Of a stretch of DNA of 23,223 nt, positions 11 through 20,253 are shown one piece after another. Source of the stretch: a virus; IMG/VR virus record IMGVR_UViG_3300036791_000005, positions 1 through 23,223 of that record, one strand, 5' to 3'. Each line of letters starts with the position of its first letter. The stretch's first letter is position 1. The notes below the pieces were generated by a model. It saw nothing but the letters and a program-made list of their open reading frames with translations, was not told the DNA's origin and did not search any database. Made by a program: the position numbers and the translations under genes.

Positions 11-1873
11 ATGATCCTCGATACGGAAACCTACATCAATTATCACCTTGTTTGTATCAAGCATTGCGACACCGGCAAGTACCTAACATTTGAATGGCCG
101 TTCGGTCGTGAAGGAAAGCTGATGTGGATTCTTCAGCGTTTCCTGATCATTGGTTTCAATTTACGTGGATACGATATCCCGATGTTGACAATGGCCCATG
201 CCACTTTCAAATACAGCATTGAGGATTTGAAAGAACTGTCCAACAAAATCATCATCGGCAAAATGTTCCCATATCAAATTGAACAGATGTACAAGTTCAA
301 ATTCATTCAGTGCAACTCTATCGACTTACTTGAAGTATGCCCACTCGGTTACACGTCTCTCAAGCTGTACTCAGGACGGCTGCACTGCAAACGAATGCAG
401 GATATGCCCATTCCAGATGATCAGACTCTAACCTCAGACCAAAAGTTAATTGTCAAAGACTACTGCCTGAACGATGTGGACAACACGGAACTCTTGTTTA
501 ACTTTCTCAAGCCTCAACTTGAACTGCGCTATTCAATGTCCAACGTCTACAACATCGATTTGCGCTCCAAGTCCGATGCTCAACTAGCCGAAGCTGTTGT
601 AGGCAAAGAACTGGAACGGCGCACCGGAGTCAGACCCGCTCGTTCGTTGGATCACAAAACATGGTTCTACTACCAGTGGCCCGACAACTTAAAATTTCAT
701 TCTCCAATATTGCAAGAACTAGGCGAAACCATCGCTAACACATCCTTCTACATTGACGATGATGGAAAGGTCAAAATCCCAGATGCCATCAGCAAGAAAC
801 AAATTGAATTTGGAAACAATGTGTACAGAATTGGAATCGGCGGATTGCACAGTTCAGAAAAGCGCAAGGGACTCAAAACTGAAGGTGGCATGTTGTTGTT
901 TGATCGTGACGTTGCCAGTTATTACCCTTCTATTATTCTTAATCAAAGACTATTCCCGCGACACTTGGGAACGTCGTTTCTTGAAGTCTACAACGATCTG
1001 GTTCAGCGAAGACTAACAGCCAAAAGGACCGGCGACAAAGTAACAAGCAATGCTCTAAAGATTTGCGTCAACGGAATCTTTGGCAAGTTAGGTAGTCAGT
1101 GGTCGTTTCTTTACTCGCCAGAACTCTTGATTCAAGTTACGATCAGCGGTCAATTATTCCTCTTGCAACTGATCGACATGCTGAACACATACGGTGACAA
1201 CTTCGTGCGTGTGAAGTCAGCCAACACCGATGGAGTCTTGATTTACTGCGAGTGCGAACACGTCACACTCATGCACCAAATCATCGAATATTGGGAAAAG
1301 GAAACAGGGTTTGCCACAGAAGAAACACAGTATCAAGCGGTGTATGCGCGTGACGTGAACAACTACGTTGGCGTGAAGATGGATGGTGAAGTAAAAGTCA
1401 AAGGTGCCTACAGTGAACGAGGATCAGCCGGGGATTCCCCGCTTGCGCGAAACCCGGAAGCGTTTATTTGCGGAGACGCGGCAAAGGCTTTCTTAACTAA
1501 GAAAACACCACTGAAAGACACCATCTATGGGTGCAACGATATTCGCCGCTTCGTGTTCGTTCGCAACGTCAAGGGTGGTGGTGTCAAGAGCGGTGTCCCT
1601 CTTGGCAAAACAATTCGCTGGTATTATTCCACAAAAGCGAAGGGGGAAATCAATTACCTCACCAGTGGAAACAGAGTTGCGAACACAATCGGCGCAATGC
1701 CGCTGATGGAGCTACCCGAAACGTTTCCTGATGATCTTGATTACGCTCGTTACATAAACATTGCGGAAAGTATTCTATACGATATCGGTGCTACCGAAAA
1801 ACCACCTTTAGATTTTGATGACAAGTTCACCAACAACTTTGCCACTCGCATTATGGCTTTCTCAGAGCTATAG
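11..1873 (+). CDS. Family B DNA polymerase with 3'-5' exonuclease (5' end may lie outside window)
   Basis: Replicative phage DNA polymerase. Exonuclease motifs are visible: Exo I DTE (residues 4-6), Exo II FNLRGYD (49-55) and Exo III YCLND (151-155). An IGIGGLHS stretch (274-281) resembles the YxGG linker motif between the exonuclease and polymerase parts. Polymerase motif A is DVASYYPS (300-307), motif B is K350-x3-N-x3-G358, and motif C is NTD (405-407). A KxKG element follows. All catalytic acids appear intact, so the enzyme should be active. At 620 aa it is compact for family B. The first ATG sits directly before the Exo I strand, has no Shine-Dalgarno in the 10 bases before it, and the frame is open to the window edge, so the true start may be upstream. 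It is the only long gene on the + strand and converges on the late operon, overlapping its last gene by 23 bp. Confidence 0.93.
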   Translation: MILDTETYINYHLVCIKHCDTGKYLTFEWPFGREGKLMWILQRFLIIGFNLRGYDIPMLTMAHATFKYSIEDLKELSNKIIIGKMFPYQIEQMYKFKFIQCNSIDLLEVCPLGYTSLKLYSGRLHCKRMQDMPIPDDQTLTSDQKLIVKDYCLNDVDNTELLFNFLKPQLELRYSMSNVYNIDLRSKSDAQLAEAVVGKELERRTGVRPARSLDHKTWFYYQWPDNLKFHSPILQELGETIANTSFYIDDDGKVKIPDAISKKQIEFGNNVYRIGIGGLHSSEKRKGLKTEGGMLLFDRDVASYYPSIILNQRLFPRHLGTSFLEVYNDLVQRRLTAKRTGDKVTSNALKICVNGIFGKLGSQWSFLYSPELLIQVTISGQLFLLQLIDMLNTYGDNFVRVKSANTDGVLIYCECEHVTLMHQIIEYWEKETGFATEETQYQAVYARDVNNYVGVKMDGEVKVKGAYSERGSAGDSPLARNPEAFICGDAAKAFLTKKTPLKDTIYGCNDIRRFVFVRNVKGGGVKSGVPLGKTIRWYYSTKAKGEINYLTSGNRVANTIGAMPLMELPETFPDDLDYARYINIAESILYDIGATEKPPLDFDDKFTNNFATRIMAFSEL

Positions 1874-16091: not shown

Positions 16092-17492
16092 TTACAGTTC
16101 CGTGTCAACCTTGGCACGTTTGTTGAAACGGTCCTTGTACTGCTTCTCAGCGTCGGCAATGCGCTTCAAATTCTGTTTGTTCACTTCAGACGCTTCTAAC
16201 GAATCCTGCGCTGCCCGACTGCGCTTATTTGCAGCAACGGCAACGCTGCCGTACCCACCGCTGGTTTTGCCGGTTGATTTGCCAAGTGCCATCTTGCTAG
16301 CAGTGTCGAATACAGCAATGAGTTTCTTGTCGCGAGAATCAGCGATAATAGGCTTCAAAAGCCTGACAAAATTCCGCACCGCTTGCTTGCGAATCTCACG
16401 CGCATCTGCTGCATCAACACCGGCACCGGGTTTTTCGGGACGATCAGAAGGTTCGATGGTCAAAGCACCGGCAGTATCGCTGCCTTCGTCGTTGCCTTCG
16501 TCTTCGCCCTCGCCCTCTTTTTTCTCTTCCTCTTCATCTTCAGCATCGGAACCGGACTTGCCCCACTTTTTAACTAAGTTACTCAACTCTTCAGCGTCGG
16601 CATCCTTCGATGCTGCCGCCTCTTCTGCACCATCTAACATCCGGTCTAATGCATCGTGGAAACGCTTGCGAGCATCGGAGGCATCTTTGCTTTCCGGTTC
16701 CTCTTTCTTCTCCGGTGGTTTCTCTTCGTCCTTCGCCGCTGCCTTCACTTCATCAACCATCGTTGGAGTTTTCTTCTCCAACTCAGTTGACATAGTGTCC
16801 AACATTTCCGCAACCTCATCAGGCTTGGCGTCCTTTGCCCATGCTGCAATTTGTGCTTTGCGACTGCGGGTAATCATTCTATCGAAGACGGCGAGAACGC
16901 TCATTGTGACCCTTTCTGTAAGTGCTGGTTCCTTTGAATCTCCAATTGCTGCTTCGTGCCCCGCTCTACCGCTTTCTACTATCGCTACATGATTGCCGAT
17001 GATATCGACTTGTCTAATCAATTCCCCATCTTTGAGGACGTGATAATTGTAGCCACAACTTAATTCGCGGAGTCCAGCTTTTATTTTGTCGATCAAAGGT
17101 TTTGACTTCACGATTAAGTCAGCAAGCAGCGGTAAGTCACCCGATTCAAGCGGTTCCGTACCCCGGCGAACATTCAATACCTGTCCCTGTTCATGGTTCT
17201 TGACGGTATCGACATTCAGTAATTCACTTGGATGCCCGTCCGTGACGGACTTACCTTCAAAGCTTGCAATCGTCTTCGGAGAGAAGACTTCATCAGGATC
17301 ACGGTACAAATTAACATCATCTTCGTCATCAACAACAATGTCTTGAGCCTTCAGTTCATCCGGGTCCAGTTCCCGCCCCTTGTAAGCTTGGAACCCGGTG
17401 CGCCCGATCACCGCATTCTTAAAGATCACGTACTCTTCAGGCGTTTCAACCCAATTCGGGGATAGGCTCACACCGTAATATGCAATTGGCAT
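16092..17492 (-). CDS. DUF2213 prohead protease fused to scaffold
   Basis: Head maturation protease with a built-in scaffold, 466 aa. The N-terminal 185 residues fit DUF2213: VTDGHPSE with H87, ELSCGYNY with S145, and IGNHVAIVESGRAG with H168. I infer a Ser-His-His triad as in the herpesvirus-assemblin type proteases. The remaining 280 residues are highly charged and helical, with Lys/Glu-rich blocks and a very acidic run (EDEEEEKKEGEGEDEG) in the middle, as expected for scaffolding protein. The ATG lies one base after the previous stop, with GGAGGA as the Shine-Dalgarno. Confidence 0.87.
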   Translation of the reverse strand: MPIAYYGVSLSPNWVETPEEYVIFKNAVIGRTGFQAYKGRELDPDELKAQDIVVDDEDDVNLYRDPDEVFSPKTIASFEGKSVTDGHPSELLNVDTVKNHEQGQVLNVRRGTEPLESGDLPLLADLIVKSKPLIDKIKAGLRELSCGYNYHVLKDGELIRQVDIIGNHVAIVESGRAGHEAAIGDSKEPALTERVTMSVLAVFDRMITRSRKAQIAAWAKDAKPDEVAEMLDTMSTELEKKTPTMVDEVKAAAKDEEKPPEKKEEPESKDASDARKRFHDALDRMLDGAEEAAASKDADAEELSNLVKKWGKSGSDAEDEEEEKKEGEGEDEGNDEGSDTAGALTIEPSDRPEKPGAGVDAADAREIRKQAVRNFVRLLKPIIADSRDKKLIAVFDTASKMALGKSTGKTSGGYGSVAVAANKRSRAAQDSLEASEVNKQNLKRIADAEKQYKDRFNKRAKVDTEL

Positions 17493-17493
17493 T

Positions 17494-17700
17494 TTAACTA
17501 TCCTCCACCTTGCCTACAAGACTTGCGCGAACGAAACAATCCTTTGCTTCTAGCAGCTTCCGCAAACCAGCAGACTTTTCGGGACCATCAGGAATGTTTG
17601 CATCAAACCGATGCGCCAAGTCATGCATGAGTCTGCTCACCGGTTGCAACTCAGTCGATAGGTGCGAATACTCGAAAAACTTCAGAATAGGTGCCGCCAT
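17494..17700 (-). CDS. Acb2/Tad1-hairpin-like small protein (possible cyclic-nucleotide sponge)
   Basis: Protein of 68 aa with the pattern FFEYSHL (8-14), LQPVSRLMHDLAHRFD (18-33), PDGPEKSAGLRKLLEAKDC (37-55) and FVRASL (56-61), predicted as two helices. This pattern is widespread in phages and resembles the Acb2/Tad1 hairpin family. Characterised members bind cyclic di-/trinucleotides or gcADPR and block CBASS or Thoeris defence. I assign the family from memory of the pattern; ligand and activity are untested here. The ATG at 17700 lies 2 bases past the MuF stop and has AGG 8 bases upstream. A GTG at 17706 is less likely. It sits between minor head protein and protease, so it would be made late if the operon promoter is its only source. 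Confidence 0.65.
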   Translation of the reverse strand: MAAPILKFFEYSHLSTELQPVSRLMHDLAHRFDANIPDGPEKSAGLRKLLEAKDCFVRASLVGKVEDS

Positions 17701-17702
17701 TT

Positions 17703-18524
17703 TCACAACCTCATGAATTGCGTCTTTGAAAGCCGAAGAATCCTACCGTTCGTAAAGACTTTACTAGGCCAATCGACATCATCAACAGCAACCACAGGCA
17801 GAGCGATACACCGGCAGTTATAGATATTTCCGGCGTGATAGCTACCTGCGTTCTTCTCATGGACCAATAGTTCTGGAGAGGGCGCATCATTCCAATTCAC
17901 CAATACTTCGCTCATATGACGATGCGACTTTCTGACTCGCGCATCGTGTGATGTTGACCACTTGTACCAATTAAGATTTAATTCCTCTGCTCTGGTACGC
18001 GTGATTGCAGTGTCAGCTTTTGCAACTTCTGTTCTCGCTATCCGGCGAATCTGCCACTTTTTCAACTCGCGCATGTACGGCGCAAGATCGTGCAAGATAT
18101 CTTCCGACCTTCGCCCCGCCATCTGTTCCTGTTGCACATGATGTACAGTTCGTGCGGCAACCTCTTGCGGGATAGTCGAAATGAACTGCGCGTTCGATTG
18201 AATTAAGAAATACAACCTGTCCCGCATCTTCGGTTGATTCATTTCCGTGCGGAGCAAGTTGTAAATCAAACTCCCTCTACCGGCAGTGTGGGCAGCTTCC
18301 CGCCATGAATTAGCGTTCTGAATACCTACATGGGTAATCATGTTTGAAGCTAGCTTCTGAGCGAACCCAAACAAGTATTTGACTGTCGTAGCGTATTCAT
18401 GCACCAACTGCTGTGCTTCGTTCCACGTTTCAAAGGTTGGTATCTTAAAAAAATGTTGAAGCAATCTGGTGATGGCGTTCTCATACGCCACTTCCAAGCG
18501 CAATGGACGTTCAAAGGGTGTCAA
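17703..18524 (-). CDS. Phage head morphogenesis (SPP1 gp7/MuF-type minor head protein)
   Basis: Minor head protein of 273 aa, needed early in head assembly and found with the portal. The C-terminal half has the MuF/SPP1 gp7 domain: RIARTEVAKADTAI (161-174), D194-ARVRKSHRHM-204, and the closing NCRC (236-239) after YHAGNIY. The N-terminal half is helical. It begins with a TTG that overlaps the preceding stop as TTGA. AAGG lies 6 bases before it, and no in-frame ATG occurs before residue 62, so the TTG start is supported. Confidence 0.87.
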   Translation of the reverse strand: MTPFERPLRLEVAYENAITRLLQHFFKIPTFETWNEAQQLVHEYATTVKYLFGFAQKLASNMITHVGIQNANSWREAAHTAGRGSLIYNLLRTEMNQPKMRDRLYFLIQSNAQFISTIPQEVAARTVHHVQQEQMAGRRSEDILHDLAPYMRELKKWQIRRIARTEVAKADTAITRTRAEELNLNWYKWSTSHDARVRKSHRHMSEVLVNWNDAPSPELLVHEKNAGSYHAGNIYNCRCIALPVVAVDDVDWPSKVFTNGRILRLSKTQFMRL

Positions 18525-18703
18525 GATGCCTTACCACATTCACAATGGTCATCTGATTCTTGTCTAATATCTTTGAAGCATTTGTCACAGATGTACGGAC
18601 ACGCCAATCCGCTGCCGAAATGCAAGCCATCGCAAAACCTACACCTATCCAATCCCGGTTTTAATCCGCTATTTACAACTACTGTTTGACTCATCATTGT
18701 CAT
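18521..18703 (-). CDS. Cys-rich zinc-ribbon-like mini-protein
   Basis: Protein of 60 aa placed between portal and MuF genes, with overlaps of 4 bases on both sides (ATGA at the start, TTGA at the end). It contains C21-x2-C24, C35, C39-x2-C42 and C54-x-C56, plus histidines at 28 and 53, enough for one or two zinc sites. I do not recognise the family. Its tight coupling suggests a real gene made in step with the portal. Possible roles are a small DNA-binding or assembly factor; nothing in the sequence decides between them. Confidence 0.7.
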   Translation of the reverse strand: MTMMSQTVVVNSGLKPGLDRCRFCDGLHFGSGLACPYICDKCFKDIRQESDDHCECGKAS

Positions 18704-20253
18704 CCGTTTCCACGTTCCCTAGCTCCGGGGTCTTTAATTCCTTCAGCTTTTCCTTCGACTCCCTCGCCTATTTCCAAATCCTGCCATTCACCGGTATCAG
18801 GATCAAGAACCTTACCGGAACGTGCAGCCATCGTTTCAACCTCAAGCGGGATACCGATTTCAGGATTAGCAGCATCAACATCATCCTCACTGATGTTGGT
18901 GTAAATTTCCGTCTTGTCAGACAGTGCCTTCAATTCCATGACTGCTGTTCGTTGCGACACCAACCCGGCAGTGAACGGTTTGACAATCGCTTCCGTCCCT
19001 GTTTCCGCAAGTTCAGCTTTCTCTTTCTCGCCCAAAACGCGAATGCTTGGAAAGACGTAATCAAGATCATCCGGCACCTTGCCGAATTCAGACATGCAAA
19101 TAAGCGGATAGAGCACATCCAACTGCGGTTTCATCTGATCGTTTTGGTACTGTGCAATTGTTTCCTCGTAGTTACGTTCATCAGCTTCGTTCGTCTGCCC
19201 CAAAGCAGACACATTGCGTCCAAACATCTTTGAATAAGGAATTCCAAAGCTACCAGAGACAGACACTTCAAACCTGTCAAGAACTTCGGATATACCCCCA
19301 AAGGCGTATTGGTGGGTTTCAAGTTTCCCATCCTTCGGAAGAATCAGCATCGAATTGATATTCAACAACTGATTCTGCGCTTCCATGATTTGATAGTATT
19401 TTTGCGCTGCCTGTTGACTCGCGCCCAACCCGCTTACGATCTGCGCTAACTCCGGGTTGACTTGAGTAAGTATCTGCGCTCTGAACATCAATTGAAGAAT
19501 GCTCCAACTTGCGTTGTCTCTTTTCCGCAACTCTTCAAAAGCCAATTCCAGAACAGAAATGCCCCAATACGAACTAGCTTCGTATTCCGGTGTAGGCACT
19601 TCGGGACCACAGAAACGAAGAATACGACTAGCATGAACATCAAACAGTGCCTCATACCCGTTGCCAAACACGGTGTAATACTCTGGCAATCCAAACGTCA
19701 ACGGGTCGTTGATATCTTTTGCAATCTGATCACGCGGCGTGATACCACTCCAGCGGTCAAAGATGATTAAGCCTTTGTAAGTGCCGGGGTTCACATCATC
19801 AAGTTCAAGCGGTTCATCCAAACGGTTTTCATGCCCATCAATCACGATCAGAGCACCGGCACCACCGTACAGCCGCGCCCATGTTACCGCTCTCTTGATT
19901 TTGATTTTAGTTAAGGTTTTGTTCAGGGTGTTCTCAAAGTTACGAATCTCTTGCGGGGTCAAGCTACACTTCAGGCGCGGCCATGCCTTACAAGCATCAG
20001 CAGCGGGTATCTCCACCCCTTTACGCGCTATCCAGTGATTGCGAAACAACGTCACCATCAACCAATAGTTGAGTGACCACCGGACTAATGTATACTCTGT
20101 AGCTTCGGCAACAGACGGTGTTTCGTATCCCATCCGTGCGGCAGGGTTCGTAAATGCATCTTTGCCTACAGAGTCCTTACCCTCATCAATGGACACCACC
20201 GGCTTGCGTAGCGCATTGTCGGCAAAGGTGCGGTACCGTGGACCCTTCGGCAT
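18700..20253 (-). CDS. Portal protein (DUF1073 / HI1409 family)
   Basis: Dodecameric portal through which DNA enters the head, 517 aa. Family features include YTLVRWSLNYWLMVTLFRNHWIARKGVEIPA near residues 53-83, KRAVTWARLYGGAGALIVIDG near 138-158, a HASRILRFCG segment and GIPYSKMFGRNVSALGQTNEADERNYEE near 345-372, which matches the DUF1073 class. The C-terminus is acidic (DTGEWQDLEIGEG) and then Lys/Arg-containing. The ATG follows the terminase stop directly with GGAAAG as Shine-Dalgarno. It ends in an ATGA overlap with the Cys-rich mini-gene. Confidence 0.92.
   Translation of the reverse strand: MPKGPRYRTFADNALRKPVVSIDEGKDSVGKDAFTNPAARMGYETPSVAEATEYTLVRWSLNYWLMVTLFRNHWIARKGVEIPAADACKAWPRLKCSLTPQEIRNFENTLNKTLTKIKIKRAVTWARLYGGAGALIVIDGHENRLDEPLELDDVNPGTYKGLIIFDRWSGITPRDQIAKDINDPLTFGLPEYYTVFGNGYEALFDVHASRILRFCGPEVPTPEYEASSYWGISVLELAFEELRKRDNASWSILQLMFRAQILTQVNPELAQIVSGLGASQQAAQKYYQIMEAQNQLLNINSMLILPKDGKLETHQYAFGGISEVLDRFEVSVSGSFGIPYSKMFGRNVSALGQTNEADERNYEETIAQYQNDQMKPQLDVLYPLICMSEFGKVPDDLDYVFPSIRVLGEKEKAELAETGTEAIVKPFTAGLVSQRTAVMELKALSDKTEIYTNISEDDVDAANPEIGIPLEVETMAARSGKVLDPDTGEWQDLEIGEGVEGKAEGIKDPGARERGNG

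Follow-up and report, generated by a model that had tools for sequence, protein, structure and literature searches.

A 68-aa protein encoded between the minor head protein and protease genes in the window (the entire 23,223-nt stretch of viral DNA analysed here, an IMG/VR record) belongs to a family that, judging from profile comparisons, is very probably homologous to the Acb2/Tad1 hairpin superfamily. Taken together, our analyses suggest that it probably acts as a nucleotide-signal sponge of a divergent clade. As a small helical hairpin that, by analogy, most likely oligomerises, it would bind a nucleotide second messenger from host defence (CBASS, Thoeris, type III CRISPR or a similar system) and keep it from its effector, so that the infected cell would not be killed before phage release. 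Its expression would be late, together with the head genes.

The gene is confirmed as a real ORF, reading on the minus strand from an ATG at 17700 to a stop at 17496-17494, and it is tightly packed, with the MuF stop 2 nt before it and the protease start 1 nt after it. PHROG matches define the operon neighbours as minor head/MuF, maturation protease, portal and terminase, in agreement with the placement between minor head protein and protease given in the original prediction. The relevant features are as follows:

17494 to 17700, minus strand: 68-aa divergent Acb2/Tad1-hairpin-type protein, putative nucleotide-signal sponge (ORF, PHROG, AF2)
17709 to 17712, minus strand: likely ribosome-binding site GAGG, read in the sequence 8 nt 5' of the ATG
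17703 to 18524, minus strand: MuF-type minor head protein, upstream neighbour (PHROG 324, head morphogenesis, 1.3e-47)
16092 to 17492, minus strand: head maturation protease, downstream neighbour (PHROG 530, head maturation protease, 5.3e-42)
18700 to 20253, minus strand: portal protein (PHROG 146, 5.3e-95)

The gene occupies the same place in a 51-kb contig (L301) with 99.99% identity to the window across the 9,398 bp compared, and likewise in a second contig (L001), where the protein is 97% identical. Elsewhere in the window, a cysteine-rich ORF of 60 aa, located between the portal and MuF genes (18521-18703, minus strand; CRFC...CPYICDKC...CEC), appears zinc-ribbon-like and returned nothing significant in a Pfam search, and a 620-aa ORF on the strand opposite to the structural genes (11-1873, plus strand) looks DNA polymerase-like by eye.

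By tblastn, at least 362 phage records in GenBank contain relatives of the 68-aa protein; a scan of viral contigs yielded at least 591 relatives, and 197 came from bacterial contigs searched with one genome per species, the last representing prophages of Proteobacteria, Actinobacteria, Cyanobacteria, Chloroflexi, Verrucomicrobia and other phyla. Nearly always, these genes are annotated as 'hypothetical protein'. The best PHROG matches of the window protein, phrog_1761 (2.7e-26) and phrog_5120 (9.6e-22), are of unknown function; a third, phrog_1454 (0.0014), is considered below. Because about 77 positions of the phrog_1761 profile precede the matched part, some members should carry an N-terminal extension or fused domain. 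Two annotation-related observations also concern this family. In Citrobacter phage phiNP (L091:4001-4183), a member lacks a CDS of its own and overlaps only the end of the annotated endopeptidase Rz gene. In the records of Brevibacterium phages 2C, 5C and AGM13, the gene of this family (24518-24754) exceeds that of AGM1 by approximately 51 bp and is overlaid by features annotated as 'repeated sequence in phage genome', a possible case of repeat expansion within the gene.

An alignment of 119 relatives required no added gap columns, and F9, H13, E41, R47, K48, L49, L50, E51, A52, K53, D54 and R58 are 99-100% conserved in it, a figure that partly reflects ascertainment, as loci were retrieved by patterns such as RKLLEAKD; a divergent member, roseophage DSS3phi2 gp31, reads IRSLWEAKN. 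The FEYxHL...LRKLLEAKDCxVRA-type pattern on which the original prediction was built is thus present and conserved far beyond chance among these relatives. The near-invariant set comprises F9 and, further along, H13, S22, E41, R47, K48, E51, K53, D54 and R58.

When the family is placed on Acb2 (T4 Vs.4, PaP2 p26; PDB 7uq2, 8h2j) by transitive alignment, the pocket positions do not all agree. Acb2 itself is a homohexamer that binds cyclic oligonucleotides and thereby inhibits CBASS. The residue aligned to Acb2 Tyr11 is likewise aromatic (position 11 is Y or F in 92% of the family), whereas the position of Lys26 is taken by Ser22 (97%), with Lys/Arg23 beside it, and that of Arg67 by Pro/Ala40. 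Tyr11 and Lys26 are dinucleotide pocket residues of Acb2, and Arg67 is treated here as a further pocket position. Since aligned positions differ, the ligand specificity of the family probably departs in some way from that of Acb2. We entertain, tentatively, a stronger version of the sponge reading, in which the family would form a very widespread separate clade whose near-invariant pocket is particular to it and suited to an immune nucleotide outside the binding range of Acb2 and Tad1, possibly an undescribed one.

A comparison of T4-like Acinetobacter phages suggests equivalent roles for the window family and Acb2. The interval between topoisomerase and rnlB carries a member of the window family in ZZ1 and Acb2 in Ac42 (PF24729, 6e-19), with flanks that are 64% (topoisomerase) and 52% (rnlB) identical. 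The two cassette proteins themselves have no similarity in a direct pairwise comparison, and their small neighbouring genes have been rearranged in part; the swap thus involves a variable interval rather than one exact slot. No locus carrying both the window family and Acb2 was encountered among the loci examined, which were mostly short.

The conservation pattern is also what lends some weight to a less probable explanation, namely that the protein is a true homologue of the Acb2/Tad1 hairpin with another job, binding a nucleotide or metabolite for a different purpose, acting as an enzyme or binding a host protein. The near-invariant residues from H13 to R58 differ from Acb2, a protein engaged in an arms race would not usually be conserved from host to host with almost no gaps, and enzymes do belong to another sponge family (PMC13232231). 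However, both the distribution of the family as mobile cargo, described below, and the cassette common to the window family and Acb2 in T4-like phages fit counter-defence, and we consider a different job unlikely.

The relationship to Acb2 and Tad1 is most visible through intermediates. The window protein alone had no matches in sequence searches of Pfam, NCBIfam, PADLOC and the PDB; it gave no match to PF24729 (gathering threshold 27 bits), and only 19 of the 119 relatives matched this profile, weakly (best E 0.029). Weak Pfam matches to Occludin_ELL and DASH_Dad3 were set aside as generic helix matches, and Gp22 (8jaj), from a PDB profile search (E 0.014 over 44 residues), as chance. By contrast with the window protein, a bridging family of the phrog_1454 type passes the PF24729 threshold, its members scoring 71-86 bits on this Pfam profile, and phrog_1454 and PF24729 match the same genes in four genomes. 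The phrog_1454 profile matches 104 of the 119 members of the window family (best 1.5e-5) and T4 Vs.4/Acb2 (7e-4), the latter with the C-terminal helix in the same register; through it, window L49-x-E51-A52...R58-A59 aligns on Vs.4 L70-x-E72-A73...R79-A80. The window and bridging families have in common their length, three-helix layout and the register in which P-x-S/G-x-E-K-S and L-x-E-A occur, but the SRE and MWANA motifs of the bridging family (FTYHxPK...SREKSLAxTxLEEAVMWANASIARN) are lost in the window family.

Profile-profile comparison by hhalign connected the window family to the bridging PF24729 proteins (probability 86-89, P 2e-6 to 5e-6), with a real score of 31.4 against a best of 20.5 in 200 column shuffles, and the bridging family to Acb2 (probability 98). 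The enrichment is reciprocal: 113 of the 124 sub-threshold matches of the bridge/Acb2 HMM fall in the window protein's family, and 79 of the 90 non-family matches of the window family's HMM are bridge/Acb2 proteins, with <1% expected by chance in either direction. One relative, L009, leads to the superfamily directly, as its single-sequence PDB search returned 9ptq, 'Acb2 homolog 43', as the best match (E 0.0011; next 1.7), with approximately half of 40 ungapped residues identical; it is the only relative shown to do so, and the window protein itself has no match to 9ptq. Compared with Acb2 proper (Vs.4/p26), the family failed in hhalign (probability 0.3, P 0.19), and HMMER gave no significant cross-match. 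The profile evidence for the predicted Acb2/Tad1 resemblance runs through the bridging family.

The AF2 monomer model (pLDDT 92.6) has helices at residues 4-9, 19-35 and 40-67 and no strands, that is, a short N-terminal helix followed by two long antiparallel helices, a layout matching the published Acb2 protomer (PMC12043709, PMC10419184). When the BFVD was searched with this model, six members of its own family came first, and the named matches down to rank 33 were mostly Acb2/Tad1 hairpin proteins. In a Foldseek search against the PDB, Acb2 was absent from the list, whereas the model of the bridging family, as a positive control, recovered Vs.4 first and Acb2 third; hence we consider the window family to be related to Acb2 but further out than the bridging family. 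A VIA-align comparison with CbTad1 (Z 5.4, 49 residues) was not above unrelated helical hairpins.

A generic helical hairpin with no Acb2/Tad1 homology would account for the weak outcome both of comparing the family directly with Acb2 and of searching the PDB by fold, but we regard this explanation as improbable in view of the reciprocal HMM enrichment, the shuffle control, the L009 match to 9ptq and the named BFVD matches. As for the identity of the protein, it falls below the threshold of PF24729, gives no direct alignment to Acb2 proper and, at 68 aa in total, shares with Tad1 (CbTad1, PDB 7uav) the C-terminal helical hairpin but lacks the N-terminal antiparallel beta-sheet domain. On these sequence grounds, it is neither Acb2 nor Tad1, and the kinship originally proposed is upheld at the level of the superfamily, by way of the bridging family, L009 and the model, rather than as membership of either family.

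The 68-aa gene is mobile cargo and very probably not a head component, as indicated by relatives of the head module that lack it, carry it one position over or have other genes in its place. In L303 and L304, MuF adjoins the protease with nothing between them, and in L058 a family gene lies between portal and MuF. The gap in L302 (1945-3752) holds two ORFs, glycosyltransferase-like by eye; the MuF-protease slot thus holds different cargo in different phages. Elsewhere, family genes are scattered among unrelated phages, beside holin and endolysin genes, within a tail operon, by thymidylate synthase and exonuclease, by DNA ligase or near a CI repressor, and an Acinetobacter Vieuvirus has one at a head-operon position similar to that in the window. 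Within the superfamily, Acb2 of Pseudomonas phage CF78a lies downstream of head genes, and the bridging gene of Gordonia phage Chidiebere directly 3' of portal. A late-operon location, previously described as striking, is therefore not exceptional, given the several phages in which proteins of the family or superfamily adjoin head or tail genes. A role in the virion (as a minor component) or in head assembly, which the tightly packed position of the gene and the Vieuvirus case might suggest, is very improbable considering the varying cargo of the slot in L302, L303, L304 and L058 and the family's association elsewhere with lysis, DNA-metabolism or repressor genes.

Acb2 is considered relatively rare and limited to specific phage groups (Chang et al., PMC11722364). 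The branch represented by the window protein has neither a name nor a solved structure, although it may already be known to specialists or sampled in the newest sponge surveys. Because the family is so strictly conserved, a single purified protein would allow the question of its ligand to be tested directly. Should signals be sequestered by this clade as well, the reach of the hairpin superfamily would grow by at least 362 phage records in GenBank and would include prophages of Proteobacteria, Actinobacteria, Cyanobacteria, Chloroflexi and other phyla.
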